Shown here piece after piece: positions 12,005-63,869 of a stretch of 64,000 nucleotides of DNA (position 1 is its first letter; each line of letters starts with the position of its first letter). The stretch is from NCBI GenBank assembly GCA_016875225.1, contig VGRW01000012.1, positions 1 to 64,000 of the forward strand, read 5' to 3'. Below the pieces are notes generated by a model. It was not told where the DNA came from, did no database searches, and saw only the letters and a list, made by a program, of their open reading frames with translations. The translations under genes were made by a program, and so were the position numbers. This DNA comes from Deltaproteobacteria bacterium. GTDB lineage: Bacteria; Myxococcota_A; UBA9160; SZUA-336.

Positions 12005-13795
12005 TTGACGAAGAACCGGCGGCTTTCGGCGTGGGTCGACCAGATGGCAGCGCTCTGCAAGCCGGAGCGGATCCACTGGTGCGACGGCTCGCAGGAAGAG
12101 ATGGACGAGATGTTCCGCCTGATGCTCGCGAGCGGTACCGCCGAGCGGCTCAGTCCCGAGAAACGCCCGAACAGCTACCTGGTTCGCTCCGATCCGGCCG
12201 ACGTCGCGCGCGTCGAAGACCGCACCTTCATCTGCTCCGTGAAGCGCGAGGACGCGGGCCCGAACAACAACTGGCGCGAGCCCGGCGAGATGCGCGCGAC
12301 GCTCGAGGGCCTGTTCTCCGGCTGCATGCGCGGCCGCACGATGTACGTGGTGCCGTTCTCGATGGGACCGCTCGGATCGCACATCTCGTACATCGGCGTC
12401 GAGATCACCGATTCACCGTACGTGGTCGCGGCGATGCGCACGATGACGCGAATGGGAAAGGCCGCGCTCGAGGTGCTCGGCGACGGACCGTTCGTGCCCT
12501 GCATGCACTCGGTCGGCGCGCCGCTCGAGCCGGGCCAGCGGGACGTGCCGTGGCCGTGCAACGCCGACAACAAGTACATCGTGCACTTCCCGGAGACGCG
12601 CGAGATCTGGTCCTTCGGCTCCGGCTACGGCGGGAACGCGCTGCTGGGCAAGAAGTGCTTCGCGCTGCGGATCGCCTCGGTGATGGCGCGCGACGAGGGC
12701 TGGCTGGCCGAACACATGCTGATCCTGAAGCTGACTTCGCCCACCGGGCGGGTGCGCTACATCGCGGCGGCGTTCCCGAGCGCCTGTGGCAAGACGAACC
12801 TCGCGATGCTGCGCCCGAGCGTTCCCGGCTGGAAGGTCGAGTGCATCGGAGACGACATCGCCTGGATGAAGTTCCACGCGGACGGCCGGCTCTACGCGAT
12901 CAACCCCGAGGCGGGCTTCTTCGGCGTGGCCCCGTTCACGAACATGAAGTCCAATCCGAACGCCATGCTCACCCTGACACACGACTGTGTCTTCACGAAC
13001 TGCGCGAAGACCGGCGACGGCGACGTCTGGTGGGAGGACATGACGGAAGTTCCGCCGGCGAACGTCACCGACTGGCGCGGGCAGGCGTGGAGCCCGGCGA
13101 GCAAGACCCCGGCCGCGCACCCGAACGCGCGCTTCACGGTTCCCGCTTCGCAGTGCCCGGTGATCGCGCAGGAGTGGCAGGACCCGGCGGGCGTCCCGAT
13201 CAGCGCGATCCTGTTCGGCGGCCGCCGCGCGACGGTGGTTCCGCTGGTGAACGAGGCGCGCGACTGGCAGCAGGGCACGTTCTTCGGCTCGATCATCGGC
13301 AGCGAGAAGACCGCCGCGGCCGCGGGCACGATCGGAGAGCTGCGCCGCGACCCGATGGCGATGCTGCCCTTCTGCGGCTACGACATGGCCGACTACTGGT
13401 CCCACTGGCTCGCGATCGGAAGGCGCGCGGGCGCGGTGCTGCCGAAGATCTTCTGGGTGAACTGGTTCCGGAAGGGCCCCAACGGCGAGTTCCTCTGGCC
13501 GGGCTACAGCGAGAACAGCCGCGTGCTGAAGTGGATCTTCGAGCGGCTGGAGGGCGAGGCGAAGGGCATCGAGACGCCGATCGGCATCCTGCCGAGCGAG
13601 GCGGAGCTCGACACGAACGGCCTCGAGATCGACCCCGAGGATCTGGCGCTGGTGCTCGGCGCGGATCTCGAGAGCTGGCTCGCGGAGGTCCCGATGATCC
13701 GCGAGTACTACGCGCAGTACGGCGCCAAGCTTCCCGCCGAGCTCGCCAAGGAGCTCGACGCGCTCGAGCAGAGGCTGCTCGCGGCGAAGCGCTAG
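12005..13795 (+). CDS. pckG: Phosphoenolpyruvate carboxykinase (GTP)
   Basis: The 596-residue protein matches GTP-dependent PEPCK along its length. It interconverts oxaloacetate + GTP with phosphoenolpyruvate + CO2 + GDP, the entry step of gluconeogenesis. Seen directly are the P-loop FPSACGKTN with the reactive Cys typical of the GTP enzyme (near residue 262), the metal site GDDIAWM near 282, and SMGPLGS and FGSGYGGN in the substrate domain. The TTG start is supported by AAGGAG 7 nt upstream. The gene stands alone, divergent from the fatty-acid transporter. This fits growth on organic acids or acetyl units. Confidence 0.97.
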
Positions 13796-13802
13796 AGAGC
13801 CG

Positions 13803-14567
13803 ATGTCCGCCGCGCCGATCGCCGTCCAGCTCTACAGCCTGCGCGAGGCGGCCGGCCGCGACTTCGCGGCGGTGATCGAGCGGCTGGGCCGGATCGGCTA
13901 CGCGGGCGTCGAGCTCGCGGGTTTGCACGGCATGCCGCCTGCCGAGCTGCGCAGGCGCCTGGCCGACGCGGGCCTGGAGATCGCGGCCGCGCACGTGCAG
14001 GCGCCGATCGGGGATGCGCGCGAGCGCGTGCTCGACGAGCAGGAGGCGCTGGGGACGAAGACGCTCGTCGTCCCGTTCGTGCCGCCGGATCTCTTCAAGA
14101 CGCTGGACTCGATCCGCGCGGTCGCAGCGGAGCTCGACGAGGCGAGCCGCAACGCGCGCGCCCGCGGCATGGCGCTCGGCTACCACAACCACTGGTGGGA
14201 GTTCCAGATCGAGCACGGCGGGAAGCACGCGCACGCCCTGCTGATGGAGCTCGTCGATCCCGAGATCTTCGTCGAGCTCGACACGTACTGGGCGACGGTG
14301 GGCGGTCGCGATCCCGCGCGGATCGCGGCCGGGCTCGGGTCGCGCTTGCGGATCCTGCACCTGAAGGACGGGCCCGCCGACGGGTTCAAGTCGCCGATGA
14401 CGGCCGTCGGCGACGGCGTGCTGGACTTCCCCGCGATCACCGCGTCGGGCGCGAGCGCCCGCTGGCACGTCGTCGAGCTCGACGCGTGCGCGACGGACAT
14501 GTTCGAGGCGATCGAGAAGAGCCACCGCTTCCTGGTCGGCCACGGCCTCTCGCGGGGGCGCAGGTGA
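13803..14567 (+). CDS. Sugar phosphate isomerase/epimerase-like TIM-barrel protein
   Basis: A 254-residue AP-endonuclease-2/xylose-isomerase-like TIM barrel. The barrel strands show metal-ligand positions typical of the family: YAGVELAGL near residue 38, GYHNHWWEF near 123 (His ligands), FVELDTYW near 158 (Glu/Asp), and LHLKDG near 184. Such enzymes isomerise or epimerise sugars or dehydrate inosose-like substrates. It is the first gene of a tight three-gene set; its stop overlaps the next start (GTGA). It begins 7 nt after pckG and might be read through from it. The exact sugar is unknown. Confidence 0.85.
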   Translation: MSAAPIAVQLYSLREAAGRDFAAVIERLGRIGYAGVELAGLHGMPPAELRRRLADAGLEIAAAHVQAPIGDARERVLDEQEALGTKTLVVPFVPPDLFKTLDSIRAVAAELDEASRNARARGMALGYHNHWWEFQIEHGGKHAHALLMELVDPEIFVELDTYWATVGGRDPARIAAGLGSRLRILHLKDGPADGFKSPMTAVGDGVLDFPAITASGASARWHVVELDACATDMFEAIEKSHRFLVGHGLSRGRR

Positions 14568-47604: not shown

Positions 47605-48071
47605 TTCGCCGTTCCCCGCCGCGAGGCTTCGAGCCGCTGCACCTCGGCGAGCGCCTCGACGCGCGAGCGGGCGCCGGGCTCGTCCGCGTCGACGGCGCCG
47701 AGCCCGTAGCTCATCGGCGTGCCTTCGGCGGCCACGAAGCCTGCGCTCGCTTCGGGAATCCAGCGCGGGTCGCGCAGGTGGTGGAACCACGCGGAGCCTG
47801 CTTCGTCCGGGCGCTCGGCCGCGTACAGGAGCAGGCAGCCCGCGTCGTCGAAGAAGCGCACCTCCCCCGCGGGGGTGTGCAGCTGCGCGGCGTGCGCCGG
47901 ATCGCCGACCAGCATGCCGCAGTGAGCGCACGGGGTCTGGCTCCAGCTCGGCTCGACGGGCCCTTCGGGCGGGCTCTGGGCCCAGCGCAGCGCGAGCACG
48001 AGCGCAGCGAGAAGCGCTCCGACGACGAGGAGCGGGCCGACCCGGCTGCGCGCTCCGCGCTCAGCGCCCAT
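47601..48071 (-). CDS. nosL: NosL-like copper chaperone
   Basis: A 156-residue membrane-anchored protein. The N-terminal helix (GPLLVVGALLAALVLAL) is followed by the NosL motif PCAHCGMLVGDPAHAAQL (Cys/Cys-Gly-Met near residues 48-53) and FFDDAGCLLLYAAE near 73. NosL binds Cu(I) in the periplasm and supplies NosZ. The classical lipobox Cys is replaced by an uncleaved-looking helix anchor. It overlaps nosF by 11 bp and nosY by 4 bp. Confidence 0.9.
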   Translation of the reverse strand: MGAERGARSRVGPLLVVGALLAALVLALRWAQSPPEGPVEPSWSQTPCAHCGMLVGDPAHAAQLHTPAGEVRFFDDAGCLLLYAAERPDEAGSAWFHHLRDPRWIPEASAGFVAAEGTPMSYGLGAVDADEPGARSRVEALAEVQRLEASRRGTAK

Positions 48072-48966
48072 CCGGATTCTCCGCGCGCGCAGCGCTGCGC
48101 GCAGCGAGCTCGAGCGAGTCGAGCTCGCGCACCGAGAAGTCGCGAATCGCGCCGTCGAGCGCTCGAGCCAGCTCGGGCAGCAGCGCGAGCTTCTCCTGCG
48201 TCGACGCCGCCCGCACCCACCAGTCTCCGGAGCCGCGCCGGAAGCCGTGCTCGCCGAGCCAGCTCGACGCGGACTCGCCCTGCGCGCGGACCTCGATCAC
48301 GCTCGAGAGCGACGCATCGAGGAGCGGCGCGGCCTCGCCGTCGTAGATCAATCGCCCCTCGTCGAGCAGCAGCACGTGGTCGACGAGGTGGCGCACCTCT
48401 TCGAGCCGGTGGGAGCAGAGGATCACCGTCGCGTCCCTCGCGAGCTCGTCGAAGAGCGGGAAGAACGCCTCGCGTGTGCGCGCGTCGAGCGAGCCGGTCG
48501 GCTCGTCCAGGATCAGCAGCGACGCATCGGCGGCGAGCGCCAGCGCGATCAGAAGCTTCTGCTTCATTCCCCCTGACAGGCTGCGGAACGGCTTCGACGC
48601 GATCTCGTCCAGCTGAAGACCCAGACGCGAGCAGATCTCCGCCACGCGCGCCGGGTCGCCTCCGCGCACGGAGACCAGCGCTCGCACCAGCTCGCCCGCC
48701 GGCACCGCGAGCGCGGGCGCGATCTGCGGCACGTACGCCATGCGCCGCGCGATCTCGAGCCGCTCGTCGCGCGCGGAGAAGCCGTCGATGCGGACCTCGC
48801 CTTCGAACGCGAGCAGACCCATGACGACCCGATTCAGCGTCGATTTCCCCGAGCCGTTCGGCCCCACCAGCGCGGTGCGCCGGCCGGAGGGCAGGCTGAA
48901 GCCGACGTCGCGAAGCGCGAGCAGGCCTCCGAACGCCTTCGACAGGCCCGAGACCTCAACCCGCAT
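48061..48966 (-). CDS. nosF: NosF-like ABC transporter ATPase
   Basis: A 301-residue ABC ATPase. Walker A is GPNGSGKST (residues ~36-44), the signature is LSGGMKQKL near 135, Walker B is LLILDEPTGSLD near 154-165, and the switch His is in CSHRLEEV near 188. The C-terminal extension (~215-300) is usual for NosF. It powers the NosDFY complex. Both ends overlap neighbours by 11 bp, so the nos genes are strongly coupled. Confidence 0.93.
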   Translation of the reverse strand: MRVEVSGLSKAFGGLLALRDVGFSLPSGRRTALVGPNGSGKSTLNRVVMGLLAFEGEVRIDGFSARDERLEIARRMAYVPQIAPALAVPAGELVRALVSVRGGDPARVAEICSRLGLQLDEIASKPFRSLSGGMKQKLLIALALAADASLLILDEPTGSLDARTREAFFPLFDELARDATVILCSHRLEEVRHLVDHVLLLDEGRLIYDGEAAPLLDASLSSVIEVRAQGESASSWLGEHGFRRGSGDWWVRAASTQEKLALLPELARALDGAIRDFSVRELDSLELAARSAARAENPDGR

Positions 48967-50227
48967 GGGTCGCTCCCGCGGGCCGCAGGCGCAGCCGTGG
49001 CTCCGGGTCGATCAGGATCGTCGTCGGCCGGAACAGCGGCACCACGCGACCGACGATCTCGACCAGCCACATCGCCGGGGTGCCGCGGAACAGCCGCAGC
49101 TGTGCGTTTCGCGTCGATAGGTCGCCCGCGAGCGAGCGCAGCTCGTAGGGCAGGTCCCCGACGCCGTCCCCGTCGAGGTCGTAGCCGGCGTAGTCGCCCC
49201 AGTCGTTGCCGCGAAACTCGGCCGCCCGCGCGTCGCCGCCACCCTCGATCCGAACCTGCACGTCGTTGTCGCCGAATCGGTTGGCCTCGAAGCGGTTGCG
49301 CTCGGCGATGCCCTGGAACGAGAGACCCACGTCGCAGCCGCGAACGTCGTTTTCGGAGAACGTGTTCCACTCCTCCGGCTGCAGCGGGCTGTTGTCTACG
49401 TGGATGCAGACGCTGTTCTGGACGATCGCGTTCGCGCGGATCTGGAGGTTTCCGGACTCCTTCGCGCCCAGCCCCATTCCGGCGGCGCCGGTCGCACACG
49501 CCATCAGGTTCCGCTCGATCCGCAGGTTGCGGCTGTACATGGCGAAGATCCCCACCACGTTCGCGATCATGCGATTGTCGGTGGCGACGTTCTCGTGGCT
49601 GTACATGAAGTGGATTCCGTAGCGGCCGCGCTCGACGACGTTCCGGATCAGCCGATTTCCGGGCGAGTACCAGACGACCAGATCGCGCGCGTCACGCGTG
49701 TGGTTGCCCTCGACGAGCGAGTCGCGCACCTCCCAGAGGCGGATCGCGTCGCCGCGCATGCCGAGCGCCTTGGCGGGGTTTCCGTCGACCTCGTTGCCGC
49801 GGATCACCAGCCGGCTCGCGCGATTCGCGAGGATGCCGAAGAGCGCGCTTCGCACCGCGACGCCCTCGACGCGCACCTCGTCGGCTGCGATGCGCACCGC
49901 GGCGTCGAGCAGGTCGAAGCGGCCGCCGCTTCCGTCGACGCTGATCCCTTCGAGCACGGTGCCGTCCGCCTCGAGCGAGATCGTCGAGCCCACCCCGCTG
50001 GCGCGAACCACCGCCTCGCGCGGACCCGAGATCGAGACGCGCCGTGTGACTCTCAGCGGGCCGGAGTGACTGCCCGCGCCGAGGCAGAACGCATCGCCGT
50101 CGGCCGCCGCGTCGAGCAGCGGCTGCAGCTCCACGCCGGCCGCCACGTCGCGACACGGGGACGGATCCGCCCGGACCAGGGACGCGAGAGCTAGAAGGCA
50201 CGCCCCGACGCCGTGTGCGACCTTCAC
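48956..50227 (-). CDS. nosD: NosD-like periplasmic CuZ maturation factor
   Basis: A 423-residue exported right-handed beta-helix protein (signal peptide cleaved near residue 20). It has repeated parallel-helix turns such as LVIRGNEVDGNP, RLIRNVVERGRYGIHFMYSHENVATDN (near 205-230, the NosD block) and FEANRFGDND. A C-terminal segment, MWLVEIVGRVVPLFRP, resembles the end of other NosD proteins. NosD works with NosF/NosY to mature NosZ. The start is GTG 50227, 15 bp after the nosZ stop. Confidence 0.93.
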   Translation of the reverse strand: MKVAHGVGACLLALASLVRADPSPCRDVAAGVELQPLLDAAADGDAFCLGAGSHSGPLRVTRRVSISGPREAVVRASGVGSTISLEADGTVLEGISVDGSGGRFDLLDAAVRIAADEVRVEGVAVRSALFGILANRASRLVIRGNEVDGNPAKALGMRGDAIRLWEVRDSLVEGNHTRDARDLVVWYSPGNRLIRNVVERGRYGIHFMYSHENVATDNRMIANVVGIFAMYSRNLRIERNLMACATGAAGMGLGAKESGNLQIRANAIVQNSVCIHVDNSPLQPEEWNTFSENDVRGCDVGLSFQGIAERNRFEANRFGDNDVQVRIEGGGDARAAEFRGNDWGDYAGYDLDGDGVGDLPYELRSLAGDLSTRNAQLRLFRGTPAMWLVEIVGRVVPLFRPTTILIDPEPRLRLRPAGATHAG

Positions 50228-50242
50228 GCTCTCGCGCCTGTG

Positions 50243-52231
50243 TCAGTTCGTCGGTTCGACGAGCAGGTAGGCCGCCATCTCGAGGTGGAGCGCCGAGCAG
50301 AACTCGGTGCAGTAGATCGGGAACACGCCGGGCAGCGATGCCACGAACTCGATATCCGAGTGCTCGCCGGGCTCGATGCTCACATTCACGTTGTAGTCCG
50401 CGATCGCGAACCCGTGGGTCGCGTCGAGCGCCTGCTCCGTGTTCGTGAGGTGGATGTGCACGGTCTCTCCCTGCTTGACGCGGATCACGTCGGGCACGAA
50501 GTGGCTGCGTACGGCGGTCATGTAGACGTGCACGCCGTCGCCGCGCCGCTCGATGCGCTCTTTGCCCGCCCCGACCGCGTTGGGCGAGACGGCGCGGAGC
50601 AGCGGATCGGTCCCGACCGGCGAGTACACGTCGATCGCCTTGATCTTGTCCGCCTTGATCGTCTGCGCGTAGTGCGGCTCGCCGTTCGGGATCGGCAGGT
50701 CGTAGAGCAGCTGCATCGGCTCCGACGCCGTGTCGATCAGCTGGAAGTTCTGCGGCAGGAGCGGCCCGACGTCCTGGAAGCGGTCGATCGCCCACTTGTT
50801 CATCGCCACCAGGTAGCCGCCGTCCGGACTCACCGTGTCGCCTTCGGGTGTCGTGATGTGGCCCACGTTGTAGTGCACCGGGATCTTCGAGATCAGCTTC
50901 AGATCCGCGAGGTTCCATTTCGCGATGACGGACTCGAGGAAGAGCGACGTGTAGGCGTTCCCTTTGTCGTCGTACTGCGTGTGCAGCGGGCCGAGACCGA
51001 GCTCGACCTGGCCGCGGATCACGTCCTCGAAGGGCAGGATCGGCACGCCGTAGGCGTCCACGCCCGCGTACTTCTTGGCCTCGATCGCCGCCTTGAGCTT
51101 CTCGATCGTGTAGATGGTCGCGTGCGTGTCGAGCTTGCCGGCGATCACGATCTCCTTGCCGTCCGGGGTCACGTCCACGCCGTGCGGGCTCTTCGGCTCG
51201 GGAACCAGGTGCAGGATTCCCTCGGAGGCTGCGGTCTCGAGCGAGATCACCCGCATTCCGGCGATCAGCTTCGTCTTGCCGTCGGCGACCGCCTTCTCGG
51301 CCTTCCGGATGTCGAAGACGTGCAGGAAGTCCATGTCGTTCTGAGAAGCGCCGGATTCCAGCGGCGGATTGCCCTCGAGCGAGCCGCCCCAGGAGCGCTC
51401 GGTGTTGAAGGAGTTCACGAAGAAGTAGCCCTCGCTGGCGAGCTTGCCCGCGTCGGCGAGGTCCTGGCCGTAGGGAGGCAGCTCGATCGCGAACGACTCC
51501 TCCTTCACGATCCGGCGCTTCTCGCGGTCGAACTTCCAGAGGATCGTCGCGCCGCGGTACGCGTCGTTGAACTGCTCGATCGGCGCGTAGCCGCCGCCGA
51601 GCGGCGCAGGGTACTGACTGGTCTCGATCACGTATTCGGTGTTCGGGGTGACGAACGTCGCGCCGTGGTTGGACTGGATCAGTCCGCTGCGCACGATCTG
51701 GGTGGTGGTGAAGTCCTCGAGGTCGATCACGGCGACGCGCGCGTTCGCCTTGTCGTTCACGAACAGGAACTGGCCGTCGTAATCGCCCTTCGTCTCGGAG
51801 AGCGCGGGGTGGTGCACGTCGGCCCAGCGAAGTGCGATGCCCTTCGTGTCCCCCTGGCCGATCACGCTCTCGCTCTGGTCGCCATAGCCGTAGCCCTGCC
51901 AGGGCTCGGGCGTGAAAACGCCGATCACCTTCAGGATCCGCATGCTCGGCAGGCCGATCACGATCACCTGACCCGAGTGGCCGCCCGACGCGAAGATGTA
52001 GTACGGGTCGTGAACACCGGTCGGTGTGTAGGTCTTGAGCGCGGCGGTCACGTCGTTCTCGGTCAGCGATCGCTGCTTCATCAGCGCGCTGGTCGAGGCT
52101 CCGTTCTGACCACCCGCCGGCTGGAGCTCCTGGCTGCCCTGCGGACCGCACGCGAGCGCGCCGGCTCCGAGCAGGCACGACAGCGCGAGCGCGACTGCGC
52201 GCGACCGATGAGACGACCTCGAAATCCGCAT
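50243..52231 (-). CDS. nosZ: Nitrous oxide reductase, Sec-exported (clade II-like)
   Basis: A 662-residue copper enzyme reducing N2O to N2 in the periplasm. A seven-bladed propeller supplies the CuZ histidines, visible as DVHHP, SNHG, SPHGV, PLHTQY, YNVGH and EPHYAQ. The C-terminal cupredoxin domain has the CuA motif CTEFCSALHLEM. The signal is Sec-like and possibly lipoprotein (…GALACG) and has no twin arginine, which marks the clade II type. ATG 52231 was chosen because AAGGAG lies 7 nt before it (52239-52244); ATG 52252 is less well placed. It follows the cytochrome c gene by 26 bp. Confidence 0.97.
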   Translation of the reverse strand: MRISRSSHRSRAVALALSCLLGAGALACGPQGSQELQPAGGQNGASTSALMKQRSLTENDVTAALKTYTPTGVHDPYYIFASGGHSGQVIVIGLPSMRILKVIGVFTPEPWQGYGYGDQSESVIGQGDTKGIALRWADVHHPALSETKGDYDGQFLFVNDKANARVAVIDLEDFTTTQIVRSGLIQSNHGATFVTPNTEYVIETSQYPAPLGGGYAPIEQFNDAYRGATILWKFDREKRRIVKEESFAIELPPYGQDLADAGKLASEGYFFVNSFNTERSWGGSLEGNPPLESGASQNDMDFLHVFDIRKAEKAVADGKTKLIAGMRVISLETAASEGILHLVPEPKSPHGVDVTPDGKEIVIAGKLDTHATIYTIEKLKAAIEAKKYAGVDAYGVPILPFEDVIRGQVELGLGPLHTQYDDKGNAYTSLFLESVIAKWNLADLKLISKIPVHYNVGHITTPEGDTVSPDGGYLVAMNKWAIDRFQDVGPLLPQNFQLIDTASEPMQLLYDLPIPNGEPHYAQTIKADKIKAIDVYSPVGTDPLLRAVSPNAVGAGKERIERRGDGVHVYMTAVRSHFVPDVIRVKQGETVHIHLTNTEQALDATHGFAIADYNVNVSIEPGEHSDIEFVASLPGVFPIYCTEFCSALHLEMAAYLLVEPTN

Positions 52232-52257
52232 CTCCGTTCTCCTTCCGATCATTGCGT

Positions 52258-52713
52258 CTAGTCCTCCGCGCCCAGTTCGCGAATGTGCGCGACCAGACCC
52301 TTCACGACCTCGGGTTTCGCGATCAGGTCGGGATTGCCGGGCATCATCGGGCTGCGCCCGACCGCGGCGCCACCGTAGAGGATGATCTTGTTGATGTGAT
52401 CGTCGCTGACCGAAGCCTGCCAATCCTTGTCGTGGAAGTTCCTCGGCTTGGGGGTCAGTGCCGCGGAGCCGGGGCCGTCGCCCATCCCCGTCATTCCGTG
52501 GCAGGTGTAGCAACGCGTCTCGAAGATCTTCTTGGCCTCGTCGCCGGCTGCCTCACTCGAGGCCGCGGCGGGAGCGGGTGCTGGCGCCGCGGCCGCAGCC
52601 GGAGCCGGCGCGGCGCCCGGAGCAGCGGGCTTTCCAGAGTCCTCGCCCGATCCGCACGCGAGCAGAGCGCCCGCGATCGCCAGCGCACCCATCCATCTCA
52701 GACGACCCCTCAT
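52258..52713 (-). CDS. Lipoprotein monohaem cytochrome c, likely NosZ electron donor
   Basis: A 151-residue cytochrome. The lipoprotein-type signal ends ALLAC (Cys20), then comes an Ala/Pro-rich linker (~27-52), and then a class I cytochrome c domain with haem motif C68-Y-T-C71-H72 and a likely axial Met in SPMMPGNPD near residue 118. It is the first gene of the nos operon; ribosome-binding site AAGGAG (52720-52725) lies 6 nt before ATG 52713. The position suggests it passes electrons to the CuA site of NosZ at the membrane surface. Confidence 0.93.
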   Translation of the reverse strand: MRGRLRWMGALAIAGALLACGSGEDSGKPAAPGAAPAPAAAAAPAPAPAAASSEAAGDEAKKIFETRCYTCHGMTGMGDGPGSAALTPKPRNFHDKDWQASVSDDHINKIILYGGAAVGRSPMMPGNPDLIAKPEVVKGLVAHIRELGAED

Positions 52714-52997
52714 CCGATTCTCCTTCCGCCATCGCTGGTTCGGTGGACACATCTCGTCGTTCAGGCAGACCGAACACTCGAGTAGAGCGCACGAGTCACA
52801 CGCTCGAGCTCTGGCTCCAAGACGACGTGAACCACATCGACGCTGCCGCGAGCCACGGGAATTCGGAGCTCCGGCCGGCAGAGTGGGGGCGAACGTATCG
52901 CGCCGGGTTGCTGATGGCAACGAACGAAATGCTGCAGGGTGGTCCGCCCGACCACCCTGGGGACGTGCCTGCTTCGATCTGCGAGCATCGCAACGAG
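52714..52997. promoter_or_regulatory. Divergent region between the nos operon and the DsbA-like gene
   Basis: These 284 bp lie between divergent genes and should hold the nos promoter. No clear FNR-type box (TTGAT-N4-ATCAA) was found. GTTGC-N5-GCAAC (52907-52921) is a short inverted repeat. A perfect 10-bp hairpin lies at 52935-52959 and is listed separately. No sigma70 -10/-35 pair is convincing. The plus-strand frame is open through most of this stretch, but it does not resemble a protein before ATG 52998. Confidence 0.4.
52935..52959. repeat. Perfect 10-bp inverted repeat with 5-nt loop
   Basis: CAGGGTGGTC (52935-52944) and GACCACCCTG (52950-52959) pair perfectly around CGCCC. It sits 38 bp before the DsbA-like start and about 220 bp from the nos operon start. 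No T-run follows, so it is a poor terminator; an operator or mRNA hairpin is as likely. Confidence 0.6.
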
Positions 52998-53663
52998 ATG
53001 GCCCTCGAGATCGATCTGTTCTGGTCCTTCCGCAGCCCGTACTCGTACCTCGCGACCAAGCGCATCGTGAGCCTGGAACAGCGCTACGACCTCGACGTGC
53101 GGGTCCGCCCCGTGCTGCCGATCGCGGTGCGCATTCCCGGCTTCTTCGAGCGCGTGAATCCGCTCTGGCCCCCGTATCTGCTTCGCGACACGCTGCGGAT
53201 CGCGCAGTCGCTGGGCCTTCCCTACGCATGGCCGCGGCCCGACCCGATCGTCCAGGAGTTCCCGTCGCGAGTCGTCGCGGCCGAGCAGCCGTACATCCAT
53301 CGCCTCACGCGGCTCGGGGCGCTCGCGGCGGAGCGCGGAAGGGGACTTTCGTTCATCGACGAGGTCTCGACCCTGATCTGGGGCGGAACCGCGGGCTGGA
53401 ACGAGGGCTCGCATCTCGCGCGGGCCGCCGCTCGCGCCGGCTGCGATCTCGCGGAAATGGACGCGGCGATCTCGCGCGACGCCGATCGACTGGATCGGTT
53501 GATCGCCGGCCATCAGAGCGACCTCGAGAAGGCGGGCCACTGGGGCGTTCCGACGCTGGTCTTCCGCGGCGAGCCGTTCTTCGGGCAGGACAGGATCGAC
53601 CTGCTCGTCTGGCGGCTGCGTCAGCACGGTCTCGCCGAGCGCATCGGGCCGGACGCCGGATGA
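52998..53663 (+). CDS. DsbA-like/2-hydroxychromene-2-carboxylate isomerase family protein
   Basis: A 221-residue thioredoxin-fold protein of the HCCA isomerase/GST-kappa branch. The N-terminus FWSFRSPYSYLATKRI has the active-site Ser in place of the Cys pair of DsbA. The cis-Pro region is WGVPTLVFRGEPFFGQDRIDLL near residue 180. Family members use glutathione in isomerisation or carry out related chemistry; the substrate is not readable. It is cytosolic, with no signal peptide. The stop overlaps the start of the M48 peptidase gene (ATGA). Confidence 0.85.
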   Translation: MALEIDLFWSFRSPYSYLATKRIVSLEQRYDLDVRVRPVLPIAVRIPGFFERVNPLWPPYLLRDTLRIAQSLGLPYAWPRPDPIVQEFPSRVVAAEQPYIHRLTRLGALAAERGRGLSFIDEVSTLIWGGTAGWNEGSHLARAAARAGCDLAEMDAAISRDADRLDRLIAGHQSDLEKAGHWGVPTLVFRGEPFFGQDRIDLLVWRLRQHGLAERIGPDAG

Positions 53664-55123: not shown

Positions 55124-55143
55124 TTCCTGCACGGAGGGTGACG

Positions 55144-57294
55144 ATGACGACGAGCTCGCGTTTCTGGACCCTGTCCGCGCTGCTCCTCTCGGCGCTCGCC
55201 TGTGGCGAGCGCGCGGAGCAGAAGCCGCCCGCGGCGGAAGCGCCCGCGGCCGAGCCGGCGCCCGCAGCCGAGCCGAAGGCGGGGCGCGTCGATGCCGCGC
55301 GCGTCGCGCGGGCGGATCAGGACGCGGGCCAGTGGCTGGTTCACGGCCGTACGCACGGCGAGCAGAGATTCAGCCCGCTCGCGGCGATCGATCGCGGGAA
55401 CGTGAGCTCGCTCGGGCTCGCGTGGTCGTTCGACCTGGGCTCGACGCGCGGCGTGGAGGCGACCCCGATCGTCGTCGACGGCGTGATGTACGTGACCGCG
55501 TCGTGGAGCGTGGTGTTCGCGCTCGATGCCGCCACCGGAAAGGAGATCTGGAAGTACGACCCGAAGGTCCCCGGCGAGTGGGCGCGACACGCCTGCTGCG
55601 ACGTGGTGAATCGCGGCGTCGCGGTCTGGGAGGGCTCGGTCTTCGTCGGGACGCTCGACGGCCGGCTCGTCTCGCTCGACGCGGCGACCGGCGCGGTGAA
55701 CTGGGAGGTGCTGACGATCGATCCGAAGCGACCCTACACGGTCACCGGCGCGCCGCGCGTGCTGAAGGGAAAGGTCGTGATCGGCAACGGCGGCGCGGAG
55801 CTCGGCGTGCGCGGCTACGTGACCGCGTACGACGCGAAGACCGGCGCGCAGGTCTGGCGCTTCTACACAGTCCCAGGCGATCCCTCGCAGCCCTTCGAGC
55901 ACCCCGAGATGGAGGTCGCGGCGAAGACGTGGAGCGGGGAGTGGTGGAAGGTCGGCGGCGGCGGGACCGCGTGGGATTCGATGGCCTTCGATCCAGAGCT
56001 CGACCTGCTCTACGTCGGCACGGGAAACGGCTCGCCGTGGAGCCGGATCGCGCGCAGCCCGGGCGGCGGAGACAACCTGTACCTCTGCTCGATCCTCGCG
56101 CTTCGCGCGGACACGGGCGAGCTCGTCTGGCACTACCAGACCACGCCGGGCGACAACTGGGACTACACGTCGGTGCAGCCGATCATCCTCGCCGAGCTCG
56201 AGATCGGCGGCGCGACCCGCAAGGTGCTGATGCAGGCGCCGAAGAACGGCTTCTTCTACGTGCTCGACCGAGCGACCGGCGAGCTGATCTCGGCGGAGCC
56301 GTACGTCGCGGTCACCTGGGCGACGGGCGTCGACCCGGCGACGGGCCGGCCGATCGAGACCGAGCAGAGCTCGTACCTGGAGAAGGCGAAGCTGATGCTT
56401 CCCGGGCCGCAGGGCGGTCACAACTGGCAGCCGATGGCGTTCAGCCCGAAGACGGGGCTGGTGTATCTGCCCGCGCACGACACGCCGTTCTGGTACGCGA
56501 ACGAGGGCGTGTTCAAGGTCCGCCCGGGCACCTGGAATCTCGGGCTCGACATGGACGTGGTCGTCGAGCGGACCGAGACCGACACGCCGGTCGCGAAGGG
56601 TCAGCTGATCGGCTGGGACCCGGTCGCGAGGCAGGCGCGCTGGCGCGTCGAGCACGAGGGGCACTGGAACGGAGGCACGCTCGCGACGGCGGGTGGCCTG
56701 GTCTTCCACGGCCTCGGCAACGGGGTGTTCCGCGCCTACCACGACGAGACCGGCGAGGTGCTCTGGGAGGTCCGCTCGCAGACGGGGATCATCGCAGCGC
56801 CGATCTCGTACGCGCTCGGCGACGAGCAGTACGTCGCGGTCGCGACCGGCTGGGGCGGCGGCTCGATCGCGGGCGGACTGAACGAGACCACCGCGATCGC
56901 GAATCACCACAACGTGGGCCGCGTGCTGGTGTGGAAGCTCGGCGCGGCGAACCCCATGCCGACCAACCCGCCGCGCGACCGCACGATTCCGCCGCCGCCG
57001 GTGCTCGAGGCGTCGGCCGAGCAGGTCGCGGCCGGCAAGAGCGTCTACGACTACAACTGCCTCTGGTGCCACGGCTTCTCCGCGGCGTCGAGCTTCCTGG
57101 TTCCCGATCTGCGCATGATGAGCGCCGAGCGGCACGCGGCGTTCGAGGACATCGTGCTGCGCGGCGCGCTGCGCGGGACCGGCATGCCGTCGTTCGAGGG
57201 CATGCTGACCCCCGAGGAGGTCGCGAGCGTCCGCGCCTACGTCGTCGGCGAGGCGCGCAAGGCCTACGAGAAGCAGCAGGCGCCGAAGAACTGA
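55144..57294 (+). CDS. PQQ-dependent quinohaemoprotein alcohol dehydrogenase
   Basis: A 716-residue type II alcohol dehydrogenase: an eight-bladed PQQ propeller (~45-600) plus a C-terminal cytochrome c domain with C639-L-W-C642-H643. The vicinal disulfide C151-C152 (HACCDVV) that packs on PQQ, the Glu of GGAELGVRG, the Asn of GTGNGSPW and the catalytic Asp of GDNWDYTS are all visible. The residue two after that Asp is Thr, not the extra Asp of lanthanide enzymes, so Ca2+ is the expected metal. The signal ends SALAC, possibly a lipoprotein. ATG 55144 sits 6 nt after GGAGG (55133-55137); GTG 55138 is an alternative. It oxidises primary alcohols in the periplasm. Confidence 0.95.
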   Translation: MTTSSRFWTLSALLLSALACGERAEQKPPAAEAPAAEPAPAAEPKAGRVDAARVARADQDAGQWLVHGRTHGEQRFSPLAAIDRGNVSSLGLAWSFDLGSTRGVEATPIVVDGVMYVTASWSVVFALDAATGKEIWKYDPKVPGEWARHACCDVVNRGVAVWEGSVFVGTLDGRLVSLDAATGAVNWEVLTIDPKRPYTVTGAPRVLKGKVVIGNGGAELGVRGYVTAYDAKTGAQVWRFYTVPGDPSQPFEHPEMEVAAKTWSGEWWKVGGGGTAWDSMAFDPELDLLYVGTGNGSPWSRIARSPGGGDNLYLCSILALRADTGELVWHYQTTPGDNWDYTSVQPIILAELEIGGATRKVLMQAPKNGFFYVLDRATGELISAEPYVAVTWATGVDPATGRPIETEQSSYLEKAKLMLPGPQGGHNWQPMAFSPKTGLVYLPAHDTPFWYANEGVFKVRPGTWNLGLDMDVVVERTETDTPVAKGQLIGWDPVARQARWRVEHEGHWNGGTLATAGGLVFHGLGNGVFRAYHDETGEVLWEVRSQTGIIAAPISYALGDEQYVAVATGWGGGSIAGGLNETTAIANHHNVGRVLVWKLGAANPMPTNPPRDRTIPPPPVLEASAEQVAAGKSVYDYNCLWCHGFSAASSFLVPDLRMMSAERHAAFEDIVLRGALRGTGMPSFEGMLTPEEVASVRAYVVGEARKAYEKQQAPKN

Positions 57295-58703: not shown

Positions 58704-59576
58704 ATGTCGGGAATCAGCCAGCGAACCTTCGTCAGCTACATCGATCGCACGCGCGAGTACTACGGCGCGCAGGGCTACGAGAAGCCGTATGCGTGGGCGC
58801 GGCACGTCGAGGCGCCGTTCGCGCCGCTGTCGCGGGGCCTCGCGCAGGCCTGCGTCGCGCTGGTGACGACGGCGAGCCCGTGGCGGGACGAGAAGCCGGT
58901 CGACGGCGTGCTTCGCGGCGACAAGCAGGTCTGGTCGGGGCCGACCGACGCGCCGCCCGAGCGCCTGTTCACCGACGATCTCGCCTGGGACAAGGAGGCG
59001 ACCCACACGCGCGACGTCGAGAGCTTCCTGCCGATCCGGCGCCTGCAGGAGCTCGCCGTCGCGGGCCGGATCGGCCGCGTCGCGAAGCGATTCCACGGCG
59101 TGCCCACCGACTACTCGCAGCGACGGACGATCGAGCAGGACGCGCCCCAGATCCTCGCGCGCTGCCGCGAGGACGGAGTGGACGTCGCGCTTCTCGTCCC
59201 TCTCTGACCCGTCTGCCACCAGACCGTGAGTCTGGTCAGCCGGCACCTCGAGGCGAATGGCATCGCGACCGTGGTGGTCGGCTCTGCGCGCGACATCGTC
59301 GAGGAATGCGGTGTGGCGCGCTTCCTGTTCAGCGACTTCCCGCTGGGCAACCCCTGCGGGCGGCCGTACGACGTGGAGATGCAGCGCGCGATCGTGGGAA
59401 TGGCGCTCGATCTGGTCGAGAGCGCGCGCGTTCCGCGCACCACCGTGCAGACGCCGTTTCGCTGGAGCGAAGACGAGAGCTGGCGGCAGAACTATGCGCG
59501 CGTGGATCCCGAGCGCATCGAGGCGCTGCGCCGCGCGGGCGAGCGGCGCCGAGCGCAGCAGCAGGAGGCGAAGTGA
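58704..59576 (+). CDS. GrdB-like selenoprotein (glycine/sarcosine/betaine reductase B family), Sec at TGA 59205
   Basis: One 290-residue protein if TGA 59205-59207 is read as selenocysteine (U168). The N-terminal part (58704-59204) ends DVALLVPL. The same frame continues PVCHQTVSLVSRHLE… to 59576, giving the motif U168-P-V-C171, as in the GrdB-like family, where Cys homologues read C-P-V-C. Conserved family blocks lie on both sides: RLFTDDLAWDKEATHTRDVESF before and GSARDIVEECGVARFLFSDFPLGNPCG after. A SECIS-like hairpin follows the TGA. The enzyme's substrate is unknown; relatives are redox proteins. It is divergent from the acyl-CoA dehydrogenase and its stop overlaps the next gene (GTGA). 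Confidence 0.88.
59219..59235 (+). promoter_or_regulatory. SECIS-like hairpin for UGA recoding
   Basis: CCAGAC (59219-59224), loop CGTGA, GTCTGG (59230-59235) form a perfect 6-bp stem, extendable by one A-T pair. It starts 11 nt after the TGA and is 17 nt long, the spacing and size I recall for the minimal SelB-binding hairpin of E. coli fdhF. The loop contains GU, as bacterial SECIS loops do. It is part of the coding sequence. Confidence 0.75.
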
Positions 59577-60803: not shown

Positions 60804-60838
60804 CCGCGCTTAGACGCAGGTATACCGTTCGTTTGCCA

Positions 60839-61363
60839 ATGAAGACGAACTCTGGAATGAACGACGTCCCAGCCGTAGTCGTGGCCCGACTCGATGGCCG
60901 CGTCGTCAGCCAGAACGCAGCGGCCCGCACCTTGATGGGAGATGCCAAGGGGCGGGACTGCTGGCACGTCGTCGGTGACCTGGAGGGAGCCGAGGGGCTG
61001 CCGTGCCGCACCGGCTGCGTCCGTGAGCTGCTCGCGAGCGGAATGGACCGCGCCAGGCACTCGCGCGTCTCGCTCGACGGTCGTCGGCATTCGCTGACCT
61101 GCGTGCCGCTCGAGGACGCGGTCATCTGCTCGCTGAGCTCGCCATCTGCCGACCGGCCGGAGGCATGGGAGCTGATCACGGCTCGCGAGCGCGAAGTTCT
61201 GTGCGCCCTCTCCGAAGGCAAGACCGATCGCGCGATCGCGGCGGATCTGGGCTTGCGGGCCTCGACGGTGCGAACCCATGTGGAGCACATGCGGACCAAG
61301 CTCGGCGTGACCACGCGAGCCGCGTTGGTCGCCCGCGGGTTCGAGCTCGGGTTCTTGTCATGA
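60839..61363 (+). CDS. LuxR-type transcription regulator with Cys-containing PAS-like sensor
   Basis: A 174-residue protein. Residues ~8-95 are PAS-like (VVARLDGRVVSQNAAARTLMG). They hold the pattern G-R-D-C41-W…G-L-P-C56-R-T-G-C60, a three-Cys signature seen in some PAS sensors and possibly able to bind Fe-S, haem or NO. Residues ~112-174 are a LuxR/NarL helix-turn-helix (TAREREVLCALSEGKTDRAI, then ASTVRTHVEHMRTKLGV). No receiver domain is present. ATG 60839 was chosen; a TTG two codons earlier and ATG 60857 are alternatives. It lies 181 bp upstream of the NO dismutase-like gene on the same strand and is the natural candidate to control it. Confidence 0.85.
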   Translation: MKTNSGMNDVPAVVVARLDGRVVSQNAAARTLMGDAKGRDCWHVVGDLEGAEGLPCRTGCVRELLASGMDRARHSRVSLDGRRHSLTCVPLEDAVICSLSSPSADRPEAWELITAREREVLCALSEGKTDRAIAADLGLRASTVRTHVEHMRTKLGVTTRAALVARGFELGFLS

Positions 61364-61472
61364 TGGCGCGGGGCGGCCGGTCGAGCTCTCGTCAGGAGAG
61401 AGAATTTGCAGATCGGTCAAACGACGGATGCGCCGCTCGCCGCAGGCTGTCTAGCATCTCGTCGGGTGTGTT

Positions 61473-61486
61473 TTCATGTAATTCAA
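61473..61486. promoter_or_regulatory. Candidate CRP/FNR (NnrR/DNR)-type site before the NO dismutase-like gene
   Basis: TTCAT-GTAA-TTCAA matches TTGAT-N4-ATCAA at 8 of 10 defined positions, in an AT-rich patch (61471-61488) that stands out in this GC-rich DNA. Its centre is 66 bp before ATG 61545, so activation from about -41.5 is possible with a transcript start near 61521. The rest of 61364-61544 holds GTGTACCGT (61501-61509) and the ribosome-binding site GGGGGAG (61532-61538). Confidence 0.45.
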
Positions 61487-61544
61487 AACCAAGCCGGAAC
61501 GTGTACCGTCTTGGGTCGTCGCCAATAGACCGGGGGAGCCGAAA

Positions 61545-63869
61545 ATGAGTAATACGAAGAGGAACCTAGCCCAGGTATTGCACGACAAGAAGACGTGGTG
61601 GGTCCACTTCTTGATTGTCGCTGCGATCTGTTTGAGTGGGCTCGTCTATCTGGGAACGGAGACCTATACGGGGGCTCCGCCGATCGAGGACTACGTGTCG
61701 GCCACCACCGGGGAGGTGGTGATCCCGCTCGCGACGATCAAGAAGGGCCAGGAGGTGTTCCACCTCAGGGGCCTGATGCTCTACGGCTCGTTCTGGGGTG
61801 ACGGCGCCGAGCGCGGTCCGGACTTCACGGCCGACGCCCTGCACCGCACGGGCGTTGCCATGCGCTCCTTCTACGAGCAGCAGGGCGGCGGAAACCTGGC
61901 TCAGTACGACAAGGACGCGATCGACGTCCGGGTGATCCGCGAGATCAAGACGAACACCTGGAACGAGAGCGCCAAGCAGATCGTGATCAACGACGCTCAG
62001 ATCCACGCGTTCAACGAGCTGAAGGCCCACTACACGCGGATGTTCAACGATCCCGAGTACGAGGAGGCCTTCAAGCCCTCCGGCGCGATCAGCGCCCCCG
62101 AGGACATCGAGGCGCTCACCGCGTTCTTCTTCTGGGGCGGCTGGGTCTCGGGCGCGGAGCGACCGGGCCAGACGTACAGCTACACGCACAACTGGCCGTA
62201 CGACCCGTCGACCGGCAACCTGCCCACGAACCAGACGATGGTTTGGAGCTTCATCTCCATCTTCGGCCTGTTCCTGGGCATCCTCGTGATCCTGTACGTC
62301 TACGGGCAGTTCAAGGAGGAGGGCGATCCGTTCACCGGTAACGGAACGTCGGGGACCACGAACGACCTCGAGCAGGGCCGGATCCGAGCCACGCAGAAGG
62401 CCACGTACAAGTTCTTCGTCTTCTCGATCATCCTGTTCGGCGCTCAGGTGCTCTCGGGCATGCTCGCGGCCACCGACTTCGTGACCCCGTTCGGTGTCTC
62501 GCTGGCGAGCATCATCCCGTTCAGCGTCCTGCGCAGCTACCACACGCTGTTCCAGATCTACTGGTTCTTCATGGCGTGGGTCGGTTACACGATCTTCTTC
62601 CTGCCCCGAATTTCGAAGGTTCCGAACGGCCAGCTCTTCCTGATCAACCTGCTCTTCGCCATCTGCATGGTGACGGGCGTCGGCGCGCTGGTCGGAATCT
62701 ACATGGGCCAGACGGGGATGATCACCGGCGCGACGGCGTACTGGTTCGGAAGCCAGGGCTGGGAGTTCATGGAGCTCGGTCGCGCGTTCCAGTACACGCT
62801 GCTCAGCTCGTTCGCGCTCTGGATCTACATCATCTACCGCTCGGTTCGCCCGTGGCTGACCACGAAGAACATCTGGTCGGTGCCCTCGTGGCTGCTGTAC
62901 GGCAGCGGCATCATGGTCGCGTTCCTGTTCTTCGGCCTGATGATCTCGCCGGACCAGAACTGGGCCGTGGCCGACTACTGGCGCTGGATGGTCGTGCACA
63001 TGTGGGTGGAGGTCACCTTCGAGGTGTTCACCACCGTCATCGTCGGCTACATGCTGGTCCAGATGGGCCTGATCTCTCGCATGATGTGCGAGCGGGTCAT
63101 CTTCCTGGCCGTCATGATGTTCCTCGTCACGGCGACGCTGGGCATCTCGCACAACTTCTACTGGATCGCGAAGCCCACCGGCATCATCGCCGTAGGCGGC
63201 GTCTTCTCGACGCTGCAGGTGCTGCCGCTGCTTCTGCTCACGCTCGACGCGTGGCGCATGAAGTCGGAGGCGGTTCGCGCCAAGACGCACGTCGCGGCGG
63301 GGCGACAGGTCTTCGTGATGGAAGGCGTGTGGCTCTTCATCCTTGCGGTCAACTTCTGGAACATCTTCGGCGCCGGCGTGTTCGGCTCCCTGATCAACCT
63401 GCCGATCGTGAACTACTACGAGCACGCGACCTACATGACCGGCAACCACGCGCACGCGGCCATGTTCGGCGTGAAGGGCAACATCGCGTTGGGCGGCATG
63501 CTCTTCTGCGCTCAGCATCTGCTTACCAAGGCTGATTGGAGCGAGAAGCTGGTCAAGAACTCGTTCTGGTCGCTGCAGATCGGTCTGCTTCTGATGATGA
63601 CCCTGGACCTGTTCCCGGTCGGTCTCTACCAGCTCATGATCGTGTTCCAGGAAGGTCTGTGGTACGCGCGGTCCCAGGAGGTTATCACCGGCCCGGTGTG
63701 GACCTTCCTCACCTACATGCGCTCGATCGGTGGAACGCTGTTCATCGTCGGCGGTGTGCTGCCGCTGATCTGGCTGTTCGTTTCCCGCGTTGGAAAGCTC
63801 CGGAAGGAAACGCCGGAGCTCGAGAGCGAGGGCGAGTGGACCGTCTACGAGAAGGACTGGGCAGCGTGA
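61545..63869 (+). CDS. nod: Putative nitric oxide dismutase (qNOR-family, NOD type)
   Basis: A 774-residue qNOR-like membrane protein: an anchor helix, a periplasmic cytochrome-c-like domain without haem (~40-225) and 12-13 helices. The low-spin haem and FeB region is intact in part: RSYHTLFQIYW, and H485 with a following Glu in VHMWVEVTFEVF. The normal His-His FeB pair reads S-H536-N537-F-Y-W, so the second His is Asn, and the Glu 21 residues later is Q558 (FSTLQVLP). The quinol site (AHYYVE in qNOR) is replaced by LAATDFVT near residues 307-314. These are the substitutions described for NO dismutases (2 NO to N2 + O2). Ribosome-binding site GGGGGAG lies 6 nt before ATG 61545. Confidence 0.9.
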   Translation: MSNTKRNLAQVLHDKKTWWVHFLIVAAICLSGLVYLGTETYTGAPPIEDYVSATTGEVVIPLATIKKGQEVFHLRGLMLYGSFWGDGAERGPDFTADALHRTGVAMRSFYEQQGGGNLAQYDKDAIDVRVIREIKTNTWNESAKQIVINDAQIHAFNELKAHYTRMFNDPEYEEAFKPSGAISAPEDIEALTAFFFWGGWVSGAERPGQTYSYTHNWPYDPSTGNLPTNQTMVWSFISIFGLFLGILVILYVYGQFKEEGDPFTGNGTSGTTNDLEQGRIRATQKATYKFFVFSIILFGAQVLSGMLAATDFVTPFGVSLASIIPFSVLRSYHTLFQIYWFFMAWVGYTIFFLPRISKVPNGQLFLINLLFAICMVTGVGALVGIYMGQTGMITGATAYWFGSQGWEFMELGRAFQYTLLSSFALWIYIIYRSVRPWLTTKNIWSVPSWLLYGSGIMVAFLFFGLMISPDQNWAVADYWRWMVVHMWVEVTFEVFTTVIVGYMLVQMGLISRMMCERVIFLAVMMFLVTATLGISHNFYWIAKPTGIIAVGGVFSTLQVLPLLLLTLDAWRMKSEAVRAKTHVAAGRQVFVMEGVWLFILAVNFWNIFGAGVFGSLINLPIVNYYEHATYMTGNHAHAAMFGVKGNIALGGMLFCAQHLLTKADWSEKLVKNSFWSLQIGLLLMMTLDLFPVGLYQLMIVFQEGLWYARSQEVITGPVWTFLTYMRSIGGTLFIVGGVLPLIWLFVSRVGKLRKETPELESEGEWTVYEKDWAA

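Follow-up and report, generated by a model that had tools for sequence, protein, structure and literature searches.

The window, by which we mean the whole 64,000-nucleotide stretch of DNA that was analysed, belongs to an uncultured deltaproteobacterial/Myxococcota-type MAG of 3.87 Mb that is 97.8% complete. Close to its end lies an ATG-initiated reading frame with zero internal stop codons (Table 1). Pfam placed two domains on the encoded 774-aa protein, NorB_cytochrome_c-like (residues 51–219) and COX1 (residues 286–732); the cytochrome c-like domain is heme-less. An earlier note had proposed that the protein is a putative nitric oxide dismutase (NOD) rather than a quinol-dependent nitric oxide reductase (qNOR), and that automated annotation would call it a nitric oxide reductase. 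Automated naming does fail here: every NCBIfam model stayed below its cut-off when searched with the 774-aa protein. A PDB sequence search at E 1e-3 returned qNOR and cNOR entries only, with no named NOD, and the closest solved relative by sequence is the Geobacillus qNOR 3ayf (405 bits). An AlphaFold2 model of the protein chain alone, without hemes or metals, was computed with the locus alignment as input and reached a pLDDT of 82 and a pTM of 0.86. Foldseek placed 3ayf first with this model (TM 0.88), followed by other qNORs.

Table 1. Features of the nod-like locus, its diagnostic codons and related genes of the same MAG. Positions refer to the window unless a contig is named; residue equivalents are those of 3ayf.
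Feature	Position	Strand	Remarks
Putative nod-like gene, 774-aa qNOR-derived heme-copper superfamily protein	61545..63869	+	ATG start, intact ORF
LuxR-type (GerE) regulator, immediately 5' of the nod-like gene	60833..61363	+	Pfam GerE 50 bits
181-bp leader, regulator to nod-like gene	61364..61544	+	From ORF positions
Published nod primer 684Fv2 site	62180..62197	+	1 mismatch; primer from PMC10286720
Published nod primer 1446F site, as printed	63155..63175	-	Exact match; encodes FYWIAKP; primer from PMC10286720
Degraded quinol site, T310..T314 for His328..Glu332	62472..62486	+	From alignment; LAATDFVT is residues 307-314
H485 (FeB ligand, H508), E489 (E512) and E493 (E516), all kept	62997..63023	+	No variation across NOD-like and qNOR rows
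H536 (kept FeB ligand, H559) and N537 (for FeB ligand His560)	63150..63155	+	Codons CAC AAC; N537 codon AAC at 63153-63155
Q558 for catalytic-site Glu581	63216..63218	+	Codon CAG
Kept heme-ligand histidines H635, H637 (HAH)	63447..63455	+	Invariant in alignment
G730 for quinol-binding Asp746	63732..63734	+	From alignment
YfhL-family dicluster ferredoxin, next gene 3' of the nod-like gene, past the window end	contig C12 ~64021-64383 (L106:6021-6383)		90.2 bits, cut-off 86
Clade II (Sec-type) nitrous-oxide reductase NosZ ORF	50243..52513	-	TIGR04246 826 bits, cut-off 625
nosD maturation gene	48956..50227	-	TIGR04247 338 bits, cut-off 300
ABC ATPase of nos cluster, nosF-like by position	48061..48966	-	ABC ATPase models; role inferred from neighbours
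Candidate eNOR subunits I and II	contig C1, L104:8986-11272	-	Active-site Gln for Tyr

Residues were numbered by alignment to 3ayf. The alignment contained 84 NOD-like rows (the window protein and 83 homologues), 12 qNORs and 5 cNORs. The homologues came from 80 named loci found in one scan of genome contigs, together with same-family and same-class relatives from whole-genome searches, and the qNORs comprised 2 PDB sequences, 2 sequences of the same class and 8 from bacterial and archaeal plasmid records. The published marks of a NOD are His560 to Asn, Glu581 to Gln and replacement of the quinol-site residues (PMC3413370, PMC10286720). In the window protein Asn537 aligns with His560 and, 21 residues later, Gln558 aligns with Glu581, just as the earlier note had read them. 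Position 537 is asparagine in 84/84 NOD-like rows and histidine in 12/12 qNORs and 5/5 cNORs; position 558 is glutamine in 84/84 NOD-like rows and glutamate in 12/12 qNORs and 5/5 cNORs. These two columns are the only ones fixed differently between all 84 NOD-like rows and all 12 qNORs.

The quinol His/Glu pair, which had also been called lost, is occupied by T310 and T314, and to this loss we add G730 in place of Asp746. Position 730 is glycine or alanine in 83/84 NOD-like rows and aspartate in 12/12 qNORs. Glu332 is kept in none of the 83 homologues and Asp746 in one of them. A histidine aligns at His328 in 28/83 homologues, so that, of the changes taken in the earlier note as NOD marks, the Asn and Gln hold for the entire clade and the loss of His328 does not. 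Threonine at His328 is the most frequent state among environmental NODs in a published survey (PMC10286720). At the Glu332 position the window protein has threonine, in contrast to the arginine that is commoner in putative NODs. Five heme or metal ligands are kept according to the alignment (H333, H485, H536, H635 and H637), of which we take H635 and H637, from what is known of qNOR structures, to be the heme b3 and heme b ligands. Taken together, the protein departs from the qNOR pattern of three FeB histidines with Glu581 and a His328/Glu332/Asp746 quinol site, and carries the published NOD pattern, in which His560 is Asn, Glu581 is Gln and His328, Glu332 and Asp746 are replaced while the other ligands and the qNOR architecture are kept.

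Phylogenetic analysis was carried out with IQ-TREE (LG+C20+F+G4, 1000 ultrafast bootstraps) on 25 sampled NOD-like proteins, the qNORs and the cNORs, after removal of the segment with the quinol site and of the diagnostic columns. All 25 NOD-like proteins formed one clade with 100/100 support, separate from the qNORs and from the cNORs, and a larger quick tree of 101 rows gave the same outcome. The window protein does not group with cNOR NorB, which forms a separate clade; its neighbors are the proteins of L024 and L006, and next that of L028. It is 41–88% identical to members of the NOD-like clade, 30–36% to qNORs and 22–23% to cNORs. The same-family and same-class relatives, at 70–88% identity, also possess the Asn and Gln. 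Anammox reactors are where the nearest relatives come from. Both the alignment and the tree called for in the earlier note thus place the protein outside the ordinary qNORs. Neither the sampled rows nor the tree include the Methylomirabilis and HdN1 type NODs, and likeness to them is drawn from published criteria, not from direct sequence comparison. Assignment to NOD is based on the published residue criteria, the match to nod primers and the presence within the clade of Algoriphagus and Cecembia, genera that were reported to carry nod (PMC10264387, PMC13386854). With this evidence, the 774-aa protein is almost certainly a member of the NOD family, derived from a quinol-dependent NO reductase.

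The 83 homologues span at least seven phyla, over which the Asn and Gln pair is an absolute marker of the clade. Plasmid records searched for NOD yielded qNOR-like matches only, at 36% identity or less. A genome of the same genus is without the gene, and the window copy groups with copies of another family instead of those of its own. This patchy distribution suggests transfer or repeated loss of the nod-like gene.

The window protein resembles other putative NODs (DAMO_2434/2437 of Methylomirabilis, HdN1, Muricauda, and later Bacteroidota and others; PMC3413370, PMC10264387, PMC13386854) in its qNOR-like fold and heme-less cytochrome c-like domain, as well as in the His560 and Glu581 replacements, the lost quinol site and a clade apart from qNOR. 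It differs from them in its carrier, a MAG of the deltaproteobacterial/Myxococcota type with NapA, NirK/NirS, eNOR and NosZ. With the qNORs (3ayf, 8bgw, 6l3h) it shares the fold (TM about 0.88), the domain layout, 5/6 heme/metal histidines and equivalents of E512 and E516, but one FeB histidine, the catalytic glutamate and the quinol His/Glu/Asp are replaced and it falls in a different clade. The heme-copper core and histidine framework are also those of cNOR NorB (3o0r, 4xyd), although NorB has no N-terminal extension and keeps the HH and E.

The gene directly upstream encodes a LuxR-type regulator, and the nod genes of M. oxygeniifera and HdN1 are likewise reported to be accompanied by LuxR regulators (PMC13386854). 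No FNR-type box with at most 1 mismatch was found in the leader between the two genes, and matches across the window were no more frequent than expected by chance. Downstream, past the window end, the next gene encodes the YfhL-family ferredoxin. A YfhL-type ferredoxin is also the neighbor of the nod-like gene at seven further loci (L024, L025, L028, L029, L038, L039 and L107), and another small ferredoxin lies near it in four gammaproteobacterial loci; most of the scanned loci have no ferredoxin neighbor. An Rrf2/NsrR-type regulator occurs near the nod-like gene in 22 scanned loci, mostly of Bacteroidota, and NorC-, NnrS-, Ric- and truncated-globin-like genes were recognized by eye near nod-like genes of the clade.

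Two other genes were observed between nosZ and the nod-like gene. The first (55138-57294, plus strand) encodes a PQQ-dependent dehydrogenase of the methanol/ethanol family with a C-terminal cytochrome c-like part. The second is a PrdB-like reading frame (58704-59576, plus strand) interrupted by an in-frame TGA at 59205-59207. Read through the TGA it gives ...LLVPL-U-PVC..., which contains a UxxC motif, and its halves match successive parts of TIGR04483. The MAG has a SelB match above cut-off, and no unusually stable RNA fold was found just 3' of the TGA. The PrdB-like frame probably encodes a selenoprotein.

The remaining denitrification genes were sought throughout the MAG. NapA (a partial-length match, 819 bits) and NirK (474 bits, above cut-off) are on contig C90, and NirS (Cytochrom_D1, 420 bits) is on contig C37. 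A clade II nos cluster occupies 48061-53229 of the window on the minus strand and consists of nosZ, nosD, the ABC ATPase gene and, upstream, a gene for a small cytochrome c; the true start of NosZ is probably inside the 5' end of its ORF. A COX1 search of the MAG identified three proteins, namely the nod-like protein, subunit I of an aa3-type oxidase (contig C91) and a B-family protein (contig C1). The last has glutamine (GHMSQQ) where oxidases have the cross-linked tyrosine (GHPVVY) and is adjoined by a subunit with a COX2 domain. Glutamine at the oxidase tyrosine site and an adjacent cupredoxin-type subunit II are the published criterion for eNOR (PMC8756737), and the B-family protein is therefore likely an eNOR. 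Like NOD, eNOR is an NO-handling heme-copper enzyme; it is encoded by a separate gene of the MAG, belongs to a different superfamily branch, and its glutamine sits at the oxidase tyrosine, not at the position of Q558. Next to the candidate eNOR is a gene for a second membrane protein that is heme-copper-like and has no Pfam match (L104:11421-12998). A cytochrome b/4Fe-4S fusion is also encoded near it on C1, and a similar set is found near nod in L025 and L026.

The three COX1-family matches had raised the idea that NOD is the sole NO-consuming enzyme of the MAG, which was rejected in view of the eNOR glutamine signature of the B-family match. Since NapA, NirK, NirS, NosZ and an enzyme with the eNOR signature are all encoded, the nod-like protein is probably not the only NO sink, and this organism could probably take nitrate to N2 through N2O without NOD. 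Loci L025, L026, L041, L042 and L094 also carry eNOR genes, no more than 10 kb away from the nod-like one. Because several carriers hold an eNOR nearby, the presence of nod alone does not mean that N2O is bypassed.

What, then, would the protein do? The reaction that we favor, with some reserve, as its main activity is NO dismutation, 2 NO -> N2 + O2. This reaction was proposed for NOD by authors who themselves called it speculation (PMC3413370), and a 2026 report states that no NOD has been purified and that the family is still uncharacterized, with conflicting physiological results (PMC13386854). Devoid of the quinol-site residues, a putative NOD would be unable to draw electrons from quinol. 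Its heme b3/non-heme metal site would bind two NO, the N-O bonds would be cleaved, the N and O atoms would be re-paired, and N2 and O2 would be released. NO from nitrite is provided for in the MAG by NirK and NirS, and the Rrf2/NsrR-type regulators near the nod-like gene in 22 scanned loci also speak for dismutation. At scarce external O2 the product could feed the aa3 oxidase or oxygenases of the P450 or desaturase type, both of which are represented among the genes of the MAG; a pMMO search of the MAG gave 0 matches, as it did in the control genomes. Dismutation would also clear toxic NO. Several observations argue against it. The candidate eNOR and NosZ could turn NO into N2 without NOD, the ferredoxin gene could mean that the nod-like protein receives electrons, and no operon dedicated to the use of O2 was observed next to the nod-like gene.

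The ferredoxin raises a different prospect, rather unlikely in our judgment, that the protein is a qNOR-derived NO reductase served by another electron donor, such as the adjacent YfhL-type ferredoxin, and produces N2O; N537 and Q558 would then serve to tune its metal site. The recurrence of ferredoxin genes at the loci named above, the kept ligands of hemes b and b3, and a NosZ that would need N2O are consistent with such a reductase. However, most loci are without the ferredoxin neighbor and the candidate eNOR already supplies N2O. Glu581 and the FeB histidine are both implicated in NO reduction, and Glu581 and one FeB histidine are replaced in every member of the clade.

Likewise unlikely is a role in NO detoxification or NO binding through other chemistry (such as oxidation of NO, N-N coupling in which an oxo group passes to a substrate, scavenging or sensing), whose main product would not be free O2. 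The recurring neighbors of the NO-stress type described above fit this role, detoxification has been raised for the family (PMC13386854), and the family's function is unproven. Against it, the strict conservation of the catalytic-core ligands across several phyla points to catalysis rather than simple binding.

Finally, it is next to impossible that the protein is an ordinary qNOR in which the Asn and Gln arose by sequencing or assembly error, a worry raised in the earlier note: each change amounts to a single base (CAC/AAC, GAG/CAG), but both occur in all 83 homologues from independent genomes, including the relatives at 70–88% identity, and the clade has further residues of its own (D86, R90, H215, F312 and K543) and 100/100 support without the diagnostic columns.

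Returning to NO dismutation, we also considered a wider scheme, which must be regarded as doubtful. NOD would branch off from a whole nitrate-to-N2 chain (NapA, NirK/NirS, eNOR and NosZ) and exchange some of the NO for internal O2, the co-located ferredoxin would prime or reset the heme centers of NOD, and eNOR and NOD would form a linked pair splitting the NO pool.

The MAG is a new carrier of the already known NOD family, which is known from many phyla, and not the source of a new kind of enzyme. Should the activity proposed for NOD hold, one more uncultured lineage of bacteria would be able to produce O2 for itself in the absence of light and to bypass N2O. The proposed reaction could be assayed in cultured carriers within the clade, which include Magnetovibrio blakemorei MV-1, Terasakiella brassicae, Roseovarius amoyensis, Algoriphagus, Cecembia and Hydrotalea flava.

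More than one copy of the gene was observed in several places. In L029 (contig JAFDDB010000058.1) a second, divergent NOD/qNOR-like copy follows the nod-like gene in tandem at about 12377-13960; it is 41% identical to the window protein, has one in-frame TGA and is truncated near the contig end. Two nod-like genes are present in Acidobacteria RIFCSPLOWO2_02_FULL_67_21 (L036 and L039) and in the Planctomycetota MAGs PLA1 (L051 and L093) and Bin_90R (L052 and L086). In the Planctomycetota, the two copies of a MAG belong to widely separated parts of the clade.
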